DNA from: an uncultured Marinoscillum sp.
GTDB taxonomy: Bacteria; Bacteroidota; Bacteroidia; Cytophagales; MED-G16
Assembly (NCBI GenBank): GCA_902529805.1
Contig: CABZXU010000005.1
Coordinates: 1-64,000 of the forward strand
Length of the DNA stretch: 64,000 nt
Direction of reading: 5' to 3'
Every line of letters begins with the position of its first letter. Position 1 is the stretch's first letter. Of the stretch, positions 10,971 through 18,192 are shown one piece after another. The notes under the pieces are model-generated. The model had not been told where the DNA came from and did no database searches. It saw only the letters and a program-made list of their open reading frames with translations. Made by a program: the position numbers and the translations under genes.

Positions 10971-12365
10971 ATGGAAAATAAATATAATTTGATAATTGTT
11001 GGCTCTGGACCAGGTGGGTATGTTGCTGCAATAAGAGCATCACAATTAGGAATGAAAGTTGCAATTGTAGAAAAAGAGTCCCTTGGAGGTATTTGTTTGA
11101 ATTGGGGTTGCATACCAACAAAAGCCTTATTAAAAAGTGCTCAAGTATTTAATTATGTAAGTAAATCTGATGATTTTGGAATTAATGTCAAGAATGCTAC
11201 TGTAAATTTTGATTCTGTTATAAATAGAAGTAGATCTGTTGCTGACCAAATGAGTAAGGGAGTTAGTTTTTTAATGAAAAAAAATAAGGTTGATGTAATT
11301 AAAGGTTTTGGTATTGTTAAATCTAGAAATCAAGTCGAAGTTATTGGTAATGGTAATAAATCTAAAATTTACGATTGCGATAATGTTATTATAGCTACAG
11401 GAGGGAAATCCAAAGAATTGGCAAATATTCCTATAGATGGAGATAAAATAATAGAATATAGAAAAGCAATGTCCTTAAAAAAACAACCAAAAAAAATAGT
11501 AATTGTAGGCTCAGGAGCTATAGGTTCTGAATTTGCTTACTTTTATAATAGTATTGGTACTGATGTGACTCTGATAGAATTTCTTCCCAATATTCTACCA
11601 CTTGAAGATGATGATATTTCTAATGAATTACTTAAATCATTTAAGAAAAATGGAATAGATGTAAAAGTAAATGCTGAAGTTACTAATGTTGAAATCAAAG
11701 GAAAAACTTGTGAGGTTCATTTCAAGTCTGGATCAAAACAAGACTCTATATCATGTGATATTGTGTTATCAGCTATTGGGGTTGACACAAATATTAAAGG
11801 AATTGGATTAGAAGATATAGGTATAATTTCTGAAAATGGAAAAATTAATGTTGATAAATATTATCAAACTAATATAGAAGGTGTTTATGCTATTGGTGAT
11901 ATTATTAAAGGTCCAGCCTTAGCTCATGTTGCTTCTGCTGAGGGTATTATTTGTGTAGAAAAAATAGCTGGATTGAATGTAGAATCTCTAGATTATGATA
12001 ACATACCATCATGTACTTATTGTAGTCCTGAAGTCGCTTCTGTTGGTTTTACTGAAAAGAGTGCTAAGGAGTTAGGGTATGATATTTTGGTTGGTAAGTT
12101 TCCTTTTATGGCTTCTGGTAAGGCAAATGCAGCAGGTCATACTGATGGATTTGTTAAAGTTATTTTTGATAAAAAATATGGCGAATGGTTAGGATGTCAT
12201 ATGATTGGATATAATGTTACTGAAATGATTGCTGAGGTCGTTGCTGCAAGAAAGCTTGAAACAACTGGTCATGAAATAATCAAATCAGTACATCCTCATC
12301 CTACAATGTCCGAAGCAATTATGGAAGCTACCGCTGCAGCTTATGATGAAGTAATACATTTATAA
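10971..12365 (+). CDS. lpdA: Dihydrolipoyl dehydrogenase (E3)
   Basis: A 464-residue flavoprotein from the ATG at 10971; a TTG four codons upstream is possible but adds nothing conserved. Visible features are the FAD motif [10 protein letters not shown], the redox-active disulfide [13 protein letters not shown] (Cys42, Cys47), the NAD motif [11 protein letters not shown], the second FAD block GVYAIGDI, and the interface HPHPTMSE with catalytic His443 and Glu448. It reoxidises lipoamide for the pyruvate and 2-oxoglutarate dehydrogenase complexes. It converges on sucD, and the two stop codons share the palindrome TTATAA. Confidence 0.96.
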
Positions 12366-13229
12366 AACTTCTAATATTTTATTTCCAATTTCTGCTGGTG
12401 ATTTTACTACATGTAAACCACACTCTTTCATTATTTTCATTTTTGCTACCGCAGTATCATCTTTTCCACCAATTATAGCTCCCGCATGGCCCATCCTTTT
12501 ACCTGGAGGCGCTGTTTGTCCAGCAATAAACCCTACAACAGGTTTTTTATTTCCATTTTCTTTTATCCATTTTGAAGCTTCGGCTTCATAATTTCCTCCT
12601 ATTTCTCCAATCATAACAATACCTTTTGTATCTGGGTCATTCATAAATAATTTTATAGCATCTTTTGTAGAGGTTCCAACTATAGTATCACCACCAATTC
12701 CAATCGCAGTTGATATTCCCAATCCAGCCTTAACAACTTGATCAGCAGCTTCATAAGTCAAAGTTCCTGATTTAGATACAATTCCAACATTTCCAGGTTC
12801 AAAAACAAAACCAGGCATTATTCCAACTTTTGCTTCACCAGGAGTAATGGCTCCAGGACAATTAGGGCCAAGAAGTGTTGTATTCTTACCTTTTAAATAT
12901 GATTTAACTTTAATCATATCTTTTACTGGAATTCCTTCAGTAATTGCAATTATTATTTCAATTCCAGCATCTATTGATTCCATAATTGCATCAGATGCAA
13001 AAGCAGGGGGAACAAAAATTAGAGAAACATTTGCATTAGTTTTTTTCTTTGCTTCAATAACTGTATTAAAAACAGGTCTTTCCAAATGAGATAATCCTCC
13101 TTTGCCAGGAGTAACCCCACCAACAACATTAGTTCCATAATTAATCATTTCTGATGCATGAAAAGTTCCTTCAGAACCTGTGAAGCCCTGAACAATTACT
13201 TTAGAATTTTTATTAACTAAAACACTCAT
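12360..13229 (-). CDS. sucD: Succinate-CoA ligase subunit alpha
   Basis: A 289-residue protein with the CoA-binding N-terminal half ([27 protein letters not shown]), the central [20 protein letters not shown] and the phosphohistidine loop [13 protein letters not shown] with His248. With SucC it makes ATP or GTP from succinyl-CoA in the TCA cycle; sucC is not adjacent. It is the last gene of a four-gene minus-strand run and overlaps the KdsC-type phosphatase by 4 bases (ATGA), so it is translated from the same message as three apparent sugar-acid genes. That grouping has no obvious metabolic reason. Confidence 0.96.
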
Positions 13230-13708
13230 ATATTTTTATTTTTCCTTAAATATAAGTCACTGAATTCCCTTACACAACCATCTCCTCCACAAGTATTTAA
13301 AATAAGAGAAACTTTTTTCTTAATTAGATCTACAGCGTCTTTTGGACAAGCAGAAAATTGAACAATATTAATTATGCCTAAGTCATTAATATCATCACCA
13401 ATAAAAGCAACATCTTCCAATTTAATATTCTTTGATGTAATCCAGTTTTCAAGAACTTTTTGTTTAGGATCATCACCTATATAGATATGTTTAATTCCAA
13501 GATACTTTGCTCTTGACAATATTGCACCTCCTCTCTCACTATTACTAATAATTCCAACCTCAACACCATTTTTTTGAAGTTCCATCATGCCAATACCATC
13601 TTTTGCATTGAATTTTTTTGTTTCTTTTCCATTTTCATCAACATAGATACCACCATCAGTTAGGGTTCCATCAACATCAACAATTAACATTTTAATTTTT
13701 GGGATCAT
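13226..13708 (-). CDS. KdsC-type HAD phosphatase
   Basis: A 160-residue C0-type HAD hydrolase of the KdsC/NeuA-C family. Motif I is [10 protein letters not shown] (Asp11, Asp13), motif II includes ISNSERG, motif IV is GDDINDL at 104-110, and the tail GGDGCVREF resembles the C-terminal loop that closes the neighbouring active site in KdsC tetramers. Members remove phosphate from Kdo-8-P, KDN-9-P or related ulosonic acid phosphates. It lies 3 bases after the DAHP-synthase-like gene and overlaps sucD, placing it directly after a PEP-condensing enzyme. Its true substrate may be Kdo-8-P or the product of that neighbour. Confidence 0.88.
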
Positions 13709-13711
13709 ATT

Positions 13712-14710
13712 CTATATAATATTTTTTCCTACAGCTTTAGCAATTGGTTTTAATGAATTAAACATTTTTTTAAATTCTTTAAAATCTAATTGTTGAGCAG
13801 CATCTGATTTAGCTACTTTAGGATTAGGATGGCTTTCAATTAACAAGCCATCAATCCCCATGGCAACACATGCTCTTGTTAAATCTGGAACACCATAACT
13901 ATAACCCATTGCATGGCTAGTATCAAGTATAATTGGTAAATTTGTATATTCTTTAATATAAGAAACTCCGCATAAATCTAAGGTAAATCGGGTGAAATTT
14001 TCAAATGTTCTAATTCCTCTTTCACATAACATGACATTTTCATTACCACCTGATAATATGAATTCAGCAGCTTGAATAAATTCTTTAAGATTAGATCCAA
14101 ACCCTCTTTTTAGTAAAACAGGTTTATTTTGCTTTCCACATTTTCTTAATATTCCATGATCATACATAGCTTTTGCACCTATTTGAATAATATCAACATG
14201 CTCAATCACCTCATCCACATGTGATGCATCTCTAACTTCAGAAATGATATTTAAATTGTGTTTTTTTCTAATTTCTGATAACATTTTTAATCCTTCTAAT
14301 CCTAAGCCTTGAAATGAATAGGGAGAAGTTCTTGGTTTGTAACAACCTGCTCTTAAGGTTGTTAAATTTAGTTCTTTTACAAATTCAGCTGATTTAGAAA
14401 TTTGATCAATACTTTCAACAGAACAAGGACCAGTTATTAATAATGTATTATTTGAATTTCCACCAATAGAAATATTATTAAAATTAATTTCTCTAGTTTT
14501 TTTAGAATACTTTTTGCTTGACAATTGCATATCATTTTCCATTGGAAAAAAATCTGCAATCTTATTTTTAAATTCAATAGGAGGACTTTTTAATTTAGAT
14601 GGTGTTATTAAAATAAAAAAATTATTTTTTTTAAAAATTATAGATTCAGTAAGCTCAGCTATTTTTTTTGCTTCTTCTTCTTTAATATTTTTTTTTAAAT
14701 GTATTATCAT
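13712..14710 (-). CDS. DAHP synthase family (type I beta) enzyme, divergent
   Basis: A 332-residue PEP-dependent aldolase. Residues 1-75 match the ferredoxin-like N-terminal domain of Thermotoga-type DAHP synthase, and the rest is the barrel. The four metal ligands are present: Cys96 (TGPCSVES), His266 (DTSHAMG), Glu292 (IESHP) and Asp303 (AKSDA). PEP residues Lys125-Arg127 (YKPRTSPYSF), Lys201 (LLKRG) and the CERGIRTF segment are kept. The usual QIGARN motif is QIGAKA (175-181), and the loop after the metal His is altered. It is therefore probably active, but its aldose-phosphate partner may not be erythrose-4-phosphate. It overlaps the epimerase/CBS gene by 4 bases. Plain DAHP synthase for aromatic synthesis remains the alternative. 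Confidence 0.85.
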   Translation of the reverse strand: MIIHLKKNIKEEEAKKIAELTESIIFKKNNFFILITPSKLKSPPIEFKNKIADFFPMENDMQLSSKKYSKKTREINFNNISIGGNSNNTLLITGPCSVESIDQISKSAEFVKELNLTTLRAGCYKPRTSPYSFQGLGLEGLKMLSEIRKKHNLNIISEVRDASHVDEVIEHVDIIQIGAKAMYDHGILRKCGKQNKPVLLKRGFGSNLKEFIQAAEFILSGGNENVMLCERGIRTFENFTRFTLDLCGVSYIKEYTNLPIILDTSHAMGYSYGVPDLTRACVAMGIDGLLIESHPNPKVAKSDAAQQLDFKEFKKMFNSLKPIAKAVGKNII

Positions 14711-15726
14711 GATTCACTAATTATAAGATCCCAGAATGTGATGCATCCTGTTAATTTTTTTTCGTTATCAATTATAGGTATAAATGAAATAATAAAATCA
14801 TTCTTTTGTATTATTTTTAACATTTCACCAATCGAACTGTTTTCATTAATAGTTATAGATTTCTTATTAATTAAATTACCCATTTCTATTTTATTGAAAT
14901 TTTCAAAGTCGTTTAAAATACCTTTTCTTATATCTGCATTACTTATCAAACCACAATATTCTCCATTATCATTTGTTAACATTACAAAGCCTAAATTGTA
15001 TTTTTCAATAGTTAATAAAGCTTTTTTGACTGAACTTTCTTGAATATTTATCACAGGACATTCTTCTAAATTTATCATAAAGTCTTTAAGAATATATTCT
15101 GAGTGTACAACTGAGCTTTTTAAAACATATAATGCTGATGCAATACTTTTATGATTCATAAGATATGACCCTGAAACACATGCTTGAACTCCTAAAATCC
15201 TCATTATAAAACCCAATTCATCATTAATTCCCCCATCAACATGAATTTTAATTTTAGGATATTTTACCCTACATTCTCTAATCTTTTTAAAGTTTATAGT
15301 ATTAAATTTTCCCCCACTTTCCCCTGGCGTTGTTGTCATTAATAGTATAAAGTCAATATTATTCTTATATTTCTCTATTATTTCAATCGAAGTATTTGAA
15401 ACGATAGCAATACCAGTCTTTGTATCTTTAAAATTAGGAATAGAAAACTTTTCTTTAATTGTTTCATATTGAAATGTTACAAATTCAATTTTTAAATCAT
15501 TTATAGAATTAAAATATTTTGAAGGGTTTTCGGAAATAATATGAAGATCAATAGGTATTGAAGAGAGACTCTTAATTTTTTTAATATCGGAAAATATTTT
15601 TTCTTTATCTGATTTATTATCATTAAAGTCAATATGAATCATATCAATATTTAGTTCATTAAGAATCCTTATATTTTCTTCAATATTTTTGTTTGAACTT
15701 GAATATATTGATGCAGAGATTTTCAT
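14707..15726 (-). CDS. Ribulose-phosphate 3-epimerase-like TIM barrel fused to a CBS pair
   Basis: A 339-residue two-part protein. Residues 1-205 align with pentulose-phosphate 3-epimerases and keep all four metal ligands: His31 and Asp33 (MIHIDF), His62 (IDLHIISENP) and Asp164 (HVDGGI). TTPGESGGKF and SGSYLM match the phosphate-binding parts. Residues about 214-270 and 282-337 are two CBS motifs; the first carries GLISNADIRKG, like the TDGDLRR element of CBS pairs in KdsD/GutQ arabinose-5-phosphate isomerases. An Rpe-CBS fusion is unusual. It heads the operon with the PEP-condensing enzyme and phosphatase, so it may supply or regulate a sugar-phosphate precursor. Confidence 0.85.
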   Translation of the reverse strand: MKISASIYSSSNKNIEENIRILNELNIDMIHIDFNDNKSDKEKIFSDIKKIKSLSSIPIDLHIISENPSKYFNSINDLKIEFVTFQYETIKEKFSIPNFKDTKTGIAIVSNTSIEIIEKYKNNIDFILLMTTTPGESGGKFNTINFKKIRECRVKYPKIKIHVDGGINDELGFIMRILGVQACVSGSYLMNHKSIASALYVLKSSVVHSEYILKDFMINLEECPVINIQESSVKKALLTIEKYNLGFVMLTNDNGEYCGLISNADIRKGILNDFENFNKIEMGNLINKKSITINENSSIGEMLKIIQKNDFIISFIPIIDNEKKLTGCITFWDLIISES

Positions 15727-17352: not shown

Positions 17353-18192
17353 ATGAAATACATCTATTATATAATTTCTATATTACCATTCAAATTGTTA
17401 TATTTTCTTTCAGATTTGCTATGCTTTTTTTTAAAAAAATTTTACAGAAAAAGTGTTGTAAGAAAAAATATTAAAAATTCTTTTCCAAAAAAAAAAAGAG
17501 AGGAAAAAAATGTTATTTATAATAAGTTTTATTCCAATTTTTGTGATGTCTTCATAGAGATAGTTAAAGGTTATACTATTACTAGAGAAGAATTGATAAA
17601 AAGAGTGAAAATTGAAAATTTGGAAGAAATGAATCAAATAATATCTGAAGATAAACCTATTGTAATAATTTGTAGCCATCAATGCAATTGGGAATGGCTA
17701 TTATTGTCTATAGGTGCTTATTTTGATGTTAATACATTTGGTATTTACAAGAATCTAACAAATAAGACTTTTAATGATATAATGTACAAAACCAGAACAA
17801 AATTTGATATTACAATGGTTGAAGCTAAAAAATCTGTTGAGTATATGAATAATAATTTACATAAAATAAAGATTATTGGATTAGCTGCCGATCAGTGCCC
17901 GAGGATAGACAATAAAGTGCATTGGAAAAAATTCTTAAATCAGGAAACAGCTTTTTATAGAGGGATAGAGCTAGTACCGAAAAAAATTAATTGTAAAGTT
18001 TTTTTTCTAACTATGAGAAGAATAAGTAGAGGTTATTATAGCATGAAGTTGCTTTCATTGTATTCTCCTCCTTATGATTTAAATGAATCCCAAATTCTCC
18101 CAAAATATGTTAATTTTCTAGAGAAAGAAATTTATAAAAATCCTTCAGATTGGTTATGGTCTCATAAGAGATGGAAACAAAATAAAAGATAA
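17353..18192 (+). CDS. LpxL/HtrB-family acyltransferase
   Basis: A 279-residue protein with an N-terminal hydrophobic anchor (about 3-28) followed by a basic region. The acyltransferase motif HX4E appears in SHQCNWEW (His109, Glu114), and AADQCPRID with FLNQETAFYRGIELVPKK fits the phosphate-binding part of lipid A late acyltransferases. The C-terminal DWLWSHKRWK is a family hallmark. These enzymes add a secondary acyl chain to Kdo-lipid A or another lipid acceptor at the inner membrane. Lipid A is the most likely target. Confidence 0.87.
   Translation: MKYIYYIISILPFKLLYFLSDLLCFFLKKFYRKSVVRKNIKNSFPKKKREEKNVIYNKFYSNFCDVFIEIVKGYTITREELIKRVKIENLEEMNQIISEDKPIVIICSHQCNWEWLLLSIGAYFDVNTFGIYKNLTNKTFNDIMYKTRTKFDITMVEAKKSVEYMNNNLHKIKIIGLAADQCPRIDNKVHWKKFLNQETAFYRGIELVPKKINCKVFFLTMRRISRGYYSMKLLSLYSPPYDLNESQILPKYVNFLEKEIYKNPSDWLWSHKRWKQNKR

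Follow-up and report, generated by a model that had tools for sequence, protein, structure and literature searches.

The question raised by this locus is whether three adjacent genes, for an Rpe-like protein fused to a CBS pair (RpeCBS), a synthase of the 3-deoxy-D-arabino-heptulosonate 7-phosphate (DAHP) synthase family and a KdsC-type phosphatase, form a route to 3-deoxy-D-manno-octulosonic acid (Kdo) in place of the canonical enzymes KdsD and KdsA. The genes lie in a 64-kb stretch of about 29% G+C (the window; contig CABZXU010000005.1 of assembly GCA_902529805.1) from an uncultured Marinoscillum sp. Its genome, G000 herein, is a 1.65-Mb draft that is 89% complete. Kdo anchors outer-membrane lipopolysaccharide (LPS), and KdsA and KdsD serve as signature genes for LPS that contains Kdo and are regarded as antibacterial targets. 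On balance, the trio probably replaces KdsD and KdsA in making the ulosonic acid on which KdsB acts, which is most likely Kdo.

The original prediction had described four packed genes, for an Rpe-like barrel with a CBS pair, a DAHP-synthase-family enzyme, a KdsC-type phosphatase and SucD. The positions of the open reading frames (ORFs) and the family models confirmed this description. Four minus-strand ORFs are tightly packed at 12360-15726:

14707..15726, minus strand: rpeCBS, an Rpe-like TIM barrel over roughly residues 1-207, followed by a C-terminal CBS pair over roughly residues 213-335; 339 amino acids (aa); PF00834 and PF00571.
13712..14710, minus strand: synthase, a phosphoenolpyruvate (PEP) aldolase of the type I-beta DAHP synthase family, distinct clade; 332 aa; above the cut-off of TIGR01361, not of TIGR01362.
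13226..13708, minus strand: KdsC-type HAD phosphatase, the proposed 8-phosphatase of an ulosonate phosphate; 160 aa; above the cut-off of TIGR01670.
12360..13229, minus strand: sucD, succinate-CoA ligase alpha, a tightly packed neighbour; 289 aa; 429.5 bits (cut-off 336).

The rpeCBS and synthase genes overlap by 4 bases, as do the KdsC-type gene and sucD, and a 3-base gap separates the synthase from the KdsC-type gene. A close relative (L003) has 89-95% identity across all four genes.

Distribution of the synthase, KdsA and KdsB

Three samples were searched, namely 59 relatives (the window genome included), 341 genomes of the order and 395 genomes of the phylum; the thresholds in the order sample were E<=1e-50 for kdsA and E<=1e-30 for RpeCBS. 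Among the 59 relatives, kdsA was over the cut-off in 36, kdsB in 56 and waaA in 54. The window synthase was found in 21/341 genomes of the order, with at least 52% identity and E<=1e-117. These matches are followed by a clean gap: the next match has 38% identity (E 2e-69), and none further down exceeds 41%. Canonical kdsA was found in 288/341 genomes, and its distribution is almost the reverse of that of the new synthase, with one of the 21 synthase genomes (G040) carrying it versus 287 of the 320 others (Fisher p 4e-17, relatedness ignored). It is thus missing in 20/21 synthase genomes versus 33/320 others. Canonical KdsD was found in only one of the synthase genomes, G203.

RpeCBS was detected in 16/341 genomes, all within the 21 that carry the synthase. 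The two genes are directly adjacent in 15 of the 16, and in the remaining one (G004) both end at contig ends. The synthase genomes without RpeCBS are G014, where the synthase itself is cut by a contig end, G026, G040, G055 and G249. At a threshold of E<=1e-85, the phylum sample gave matches in 2/395 genomes, namely the genome of the window and G381, which belongs to another order.

The trio keeps the same order and tight spacing in the window's family, in two genomes of other families (G022 and G309) and in G381, and its flanks in these three differ from those in the window's family. Other arrangements were also found. G203 has the rpeCBS-synthase pair, and G026 and G249 have synthase and kdsC without rpeCBS. 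In G055 and G040 the synthase abuts a convergent kdsB. In G158, kdsB, a 388-aa ORF, rpeCBS and the synthase stand in a row, with no kdsC after the synthase. The synthase is therefore physically linked to kdsB in three genomes (G055, G040 and G158). The 388-aa ORF of G158 (L112 4755-5921) encodes a protein with an ARMT1-like damage-control phosphatase domain, which might take the part of KdsC in this genome.

The replacement is also seen within one genus. In G321, canonical KdsA and KdsD lie side by side, and the synthase search gave a trp-type match only; in G309, of the same genus, the trio is present and KdsA and KdsD were not found. KdsB is present in both genomes. Because the G309 synthase groups with that of G381 from another order (100/99 in the tree with outgroups), a horizontal transfer of the synthase between orders is suggested.

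KdsB was found in 21/21 synthase genomes. Its conservation was measured at 66 positions that are invariant in eight reference proteins (G016, G028, G046, G049, G057, G091, G114 and G321); kdsA was found in six of the eight source genomes, the exceptions being G091 and G114. The KdsB of seven synthase genomes outside the window's family has 0-5 of the 66 invariant residues changed (61-66 kept), with no change in G309 and one each in G022 and G055. In the two KdsB proteins of the window's family, 10-11/66 residues are changed (55-56 kept). For comparison, KdsB-like paralogues have 22/66 changed in G000 (44 kept) and 25/66 in G321 (41 kept), and the second KdsB of G203 has 10/66 changed (56 kept). 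Since the KdsB of the window's family is no closer to the reference than the second KdsB of G203, the argument from KdsB rests on the other families. There, the near-unchanged residues suggest that KdsB has the same substrate in synthase genomes as in KdsA genomes, and to judge from these residues the product is probably still Kdo. The KdsB-like cytidylyltransferase of G000 (22/66 changed) lies with the pseudaminic acid synthase PseI in a surface-sugar locus on contig C16 (L069 105-1118 and 7634-8404).

Neither kdsA nor the new synthase was found in 33 genomes, and 15 of these were also checked for KdsB. It was not found in ten of the 15 (G002, G035, G050, G064, G077, G102, G258, G267, G270 and G276), and G002, G035 and G050 are also without waaA. 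These ten genomes without KdsB and without either synthase probably gave up Kdo. Among them, G258, G267, G270 and G276 are rated 99-100% complete with kdsA, kdsB and the new synthase not found, and they are candidates for Kdo-free LPS or for having no LPS.

The synthase and the DAHP synthase of the genome

The window synthase matches DAHP_synth_1 with 226 bits and TIGR01361 with 316.2 bits (cut-off 267.75), and it also passes PRK08673. In the KdsA equivalog TIGR01362 it reaches 122.5 bits (cut-off 314), and the members of its clade reach 106-132 bits. Alignment showed that Cys96, His266, Glu292 and Asp303 are present, which we take to be the metal and PEP residues of DAHP synthase.

Of the 22 clade members known, 20 went into the trees; G004 and G014, cut by contig ends, were left out. 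The new clade (20) is separated from the trp-type DAHP synthases (11) by a branch with 100/100 support. The synthases with an adjoining rpeCBS form one group with moderate support (79/85, and 96/89 in the tree with outgroups). Because KdsA and the AroF-chorismate mutase row in the outgroup tree are both long branches, the tree was repeated without them. Twenty-two positions are fixed in 20/20 clade members and different in 11/11 trp-type enzymes, for example K180-A181-M182-x-D184 where the trp-type enzymes have R-N-(S/T)-x-N. Residues K180, A181, M182, D184, Y272 and G273 would sit in pocket-lining motifs. T128, Q134 and F242 of the 22 are common to the 4grs sequence; hence not all 22 are new.

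Compared with type I-beta DAHP synthases (TIGR01361; top solved relatives 1vs1, 4grs, 1zco and 1rzm), the window synthase shares the fold family, the metal and PEP residues, the KPRTS motif and the N-terminal extension. It differs in lying away from shikimate genes and in carrying the 22 clade-fixed positions. The genomic context of the synthase is Kdo-type, not shikimate-type.

The sole other DAHP-family match in the same genome is a 362-aa protein with DAHP synthase and chorismate mutase domains, directly beside aroB (334.8 bits, cut-off 305). Its score in TIGR01361 is 165.5 of 267.75 bits, below the cut-off that the window synthase passes. It is therefore the aroB neighbourhood, not the model score, that tells which of the two DAHP-family proteins makes DAHP. 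Similarly, G026, G249 and G309 have a trp-type DAHP synthase besides the new one, in G026 beside trp genes.

These results bear on the original prediction, which saw in the genes a way of making a 3-deoxy-ulosonic acid that might take the place of KdsD and KdsA, and proposed to look for recurrence of the trio and for its co-occurrence with, or replacement of, kdsA and kdsD. It named three observations that would speak against the idea: a synthase that is the sole DAHP synthase of the cell, a normal kdsD-kdsA pair elsewhere, and a trio not conserved in relatives. None of the three was observed. The genome has its own DAHP synthase-chorismate mutase beside aroB, canonical kdsA and kdsD were found in 0/15 genomes of the window's family (all drafts, many incomplete), and the trio recurs in different families and in a second order. 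With KdsB kept, kdsA in only 1/21 synthase genomes and the swap within a genus, the proposed route is supported.

RpeCBS, the CBS pairs and the neighbouring genes

In the family search, RpeCBS matches PF00834 (Ribul_P_3_epim) with 96.6 bits (cut-off 21.1) and has two CBS stretches (PF00571). It resembles ribulose-5-phosphate 3-epimerase (Rpe) in its active site: His30, Asp32, His61 and Asp163 of the window protein line up with residues of Rpe 3ovp that we take to be the metal and acid/base residues. It differs from Rpe in scoring below the Rpe equivalog TIGR01163 (90.7 of 212.6 bits), in having HIDFNDN where the 3ovp alignment shows HLDVMDG in Rpe, and in the added CBS pair. The four residues are kept in the homologue rows that cover those positions, and because of this conservation RpeCBS is probably an active enzyme. 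With KdsD/GutQ it has the C-terminal CBS pair in common. The difference is that RpeCBS has no SIS domain and an Rpe-like catalytic part; it reaches 35.2 bits in the KdsD model TIGR00393 (cut-off 203.7), through the CBS part only. The possibility that RpeCBS is the housekeeping Rpe was rejected, as a second Rpe-like match is present in G001, G003, G005, G006, G010, G011, G012 and G013 of the window's family. No second match was seen in the incomplete genomes G000, G004, G008 and G009.

The CBS pairs were excised with a profile in which the three compared groups were represented and were then scored against each other. The KdsD CBS model gave mean scores of 80 bits for the pairs of a fructose-6-phosphate aldolase (FSA) type fusion described below, 62 for RpeCBS pairs and 47 for IMPDH. 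The RpeCBS CBS model gave 50 bits for KdsD pairs, 35 for IMPDH and 33 for FSA. KdsD is thus the best-scoring group for the RpeCBS pair among the groups compared, and the RpeCBS and FSA-CBS pairs are distant from each other, each model scoring the other below IMPDH on average. In the CBS tree KdsD does not form one group.

The FSA-CBS protein was found in genomes with canonical KdsA. Of the 59 relatives, 36 are KdsA-positive; 20 of these have KdsD over the cut-off and the other 16 have FSA-CBS, a protein of about 340 aa with a transaldolase/fructose-6-phosphate-aldolase barrel and a C-terminal KdsD-like CBS pair. The BLAST search for FSA-CBS covered 17 genomes, none of them among the 20 with KdsD, and family models were run on three of the 17. 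The gene lies <=1 kb from kdsA in 11/16 genomes, and a KdsC-like gene is close by in 8/16. The loci are:

L074, L076, L077, L079, L081, L156 and L159-L163: FSA-CBS; example L076 7174-9821.

FSA-CBS is likely a second KdsD replacement. According to PMC9947464, glycolaldehyde and glyceraldehyde 3-phosphate are the starting compounds when FsaA is used for making D-arabinose 5-phosphate (A5P). Three catalytic folds thus carry a KdsD-like CBS pair (SIS, FSA/transaldolase and Rpe), each acting before the ulosonate synthase step, with the reserve that the tie is weaker in wider libraries.

The phosphatase scores 128.4 bits in the subfamily model TIGR01670 (cut-off 106.95) and is under the equivalog cut-offs of both KdsC (PRK09484, 128.4 of 208) and KDN-9-P phosphatase (133 of 180). 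A KdsC-type gene directly follows the synthase in the window's family, G022, G026, G249, G309 and G381, and none is beside it in G040, G055, G158 and G203.

The role of sucD as a part of the module was rejected. Wherever a locus of the window's family extends far enough, sucD follows the trio; it is not beside the trio in G022, G158, G309 or G381. The module is rpeCBS, the synthase and the KdsC-type phosphatase, with sucD mainly a neighbour. In G249, from a distant family, sucD is about 1.3 kb from kdsC-synthase with one opposite-strand ORF between them (L115 5979-9757), which is either old synteny or coincidence. A lipid A acyltransferase-like gene (PF03279, window 17353-18192) lies on the opposite strand upstream of the trio, a position kept in the window's family.

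The proposed route and its alternatives

We infer that the substrate is A5P, that the product is Kdo and that RpeCBS is the A5P maker. In this route, RpeCBS would supply A5P, the DAHP-synthase-derived enzyme would condense A5P and PEP to Kdo 8-phosphate, and the KdsC-type phosphatase would free Kdo, after which the ordinary KdsB and WaaA of the genome would take over. The parallel to the canonical pathway (KdsD, KdsA, KdsC and KdsB) includes a CBS-fused sugar-phosphate enzyme, a PEP aldolase and a HAD phosphatase, with KdsB and WaaA kept; the difference is an Rpe-like barrel for the SIS domain of KdsD and a DAHP-synthase-type enzyme for KdsA.

Using alpha-carbon enediolate chemistry, Rpe abstracts a proton from the carbon adjacent to the carbonyl, C3 of ribulose 5-phosphate, and then restores it. 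The Rpe family also includes allulose-6-phosphate 3-epimerase, in which the spacing from carbon to phosphate equals that for C2 of ribose 5-phosphate. A chemically simple option would be that A5P is formed by C2-epimerisation of the aldehyde form of ribose 5-phosphate; alternatively, ribulose 5-phosphate could be isomerised to A5P as by KdsD. The CBS pair would act as an end-product sensor, as suggested for KdsD. Only tentatively can all of this be put together: RpeCBS may be a new kind of A5P-forming enzyme, in the simplest case a ribose-5-phosphate 2-epimerase, under KdsD-type CBS control by the end product, with the CBS sensor placed on three unrelated folds and KdsA replaced by a re-purposed DAHP synthase. 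Among the open PMC articles listed as matches, no title or opening of an abstract describes the trio, an Rpe-CBS or FSA-CBS source of A5P, or a replacement of KdsA.

Several observations weigh against the replacement of KdsD and KdsA by this trio. Many genomes of the window's family are incomplete drafts. The window synthase passes TIGR01361, and the aroB-linked protein of the same genome does not. The sugar-binding motif is KPRTS, that of erythrose-4-phosphate enzymes, in 19 clade rows of the alignment; it is KANRTS in the aligned KdsA rows, where we take KANR(T/S)S to be the sugar-binding motif of KdsA. Structure models, predicted from only two sequences, were poor (mean pLDDT, the predicted local distance difference test, 53.7 and 50.2). 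In NCBIfam, CbpB scores slightly above kpsF for the RpeCBS CBS pair. In the PDB, other CBS proteins match this pair better than those of KdsD (4o9k, 3k2v and 3fna match and are not best); the ligand of the CBS pair in 4o9k and 3k2v is presumably cytidine monophosphate-Kdo.

Individual genomes also fall outside the pattern. KdsB is present without either synthase in G007, G024, G045, G091 and G114, which are 79, 88, 84, 75 and 93% complete, and G024 and G114 also have KdsD. These five may have assembly gaps or yet another route; for G114, with KdsD and KdsB at 93% completeness, this would be an assembly gap or another Kdo 8-phosphate synthase. G040 has the new synthase together with kdsA (in two pieces at contig ends) and FSA-CBS. 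G203 has rpeCBS-synthase and a canonical KdsD on another contig. This KdsD adjoins a divergent KdsB on that separate contig (L123 1492-3227), which may be a second sugar locus or contamination. G249 (100% complete), G026 and G055 (93% each) have the synthase, and neither RpeCBS nor KdsD was found in them, nor FSA-CBS when searched via its CBS part. G249, G026, G055, G040 and G203 leave room for another aldose phosphate or for an unrecognised source of A5P.

The first of these openings leads to the alternative that survives best, which we consider possible and unlikely: the trio makes another ulosonic acid that stands in for Kdo, such as a C7 3-deoxy-heptulosonate built on erythrose 4-phosphate or an epimer of Kdo built on ribose 5-phosphate; this acid is still activated by KdsB and transferred by WaaA, and RpeCBS only steers pentose phosphates. 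The DAHP-synthase-type KPRTS motif fits this alternative, as does the presence of both synthases in G040. It also fits that no source of A5P is recognised in the synthase genomes G249, G026 and G055, whereas 36/36 KdsA-positive genomes have KdsD or FSA-CBS. However, the near-unchanged KdsB residues of G309, G022 and G055 suggest the same substrate as in KdsA genomes, and the CBS-fused partner parallels KdsD.

The second opening leads to a reading that is improbable: the synthase is a true Kdo 8-phosphate synthase, A5P comes from an unrecognised enzyme, and RpeCBS regulates pentose-phosphate flux or epimerises another sugar. The synthase does occur without RpeCBS in G249, G026, G055 and G040 (and in G014 with its cut synthase), and G203 has both RpeCBS and KdsD. 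On the other side, RpeCBS never occurs without the synthase (16/16), and in other genomes the corresponding position is taken by KdsD and FSA-CBS, which are CBS-fused too.

A second ordinary DAHP synthase for aromatics, with the phosphatase and RpeCBS as neighbours without a common product, is very improbable: it would explain why the synthase passes TIGR01361 and PRK08673 and the other DAHP-family protein of the genome does not reach TIGR01361, but a DAHP synthase-chorismate mutase fusion is already beside aroB, the clade is distinct from trp-type enzymes, the synthase occurs with KdsB in 21/21 genomes and nearly excludes KdsA, and the conserved adjoining phosphatase would destroy DAHP meant for the shikimate pathway. 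A pseudaminic- or sialic-acid route for the trio was rejected, as the same genome has a separate PseI in the locus on contig C16.

The replacement of KdsD and KdsA by the trio has consequences for how such genomes are read. A lineage with KdsB and without KdsA and KdsD would be scored as incapable of making Kdo, and current models would name the synthase a DAHP synthase. If the replacement is true, two non-orthologous replacements have taken place in one conserved pathway. It would also trace a path by which a DAHP synthase acquired a new substrate specificity, and it might add a new epimerase activity.

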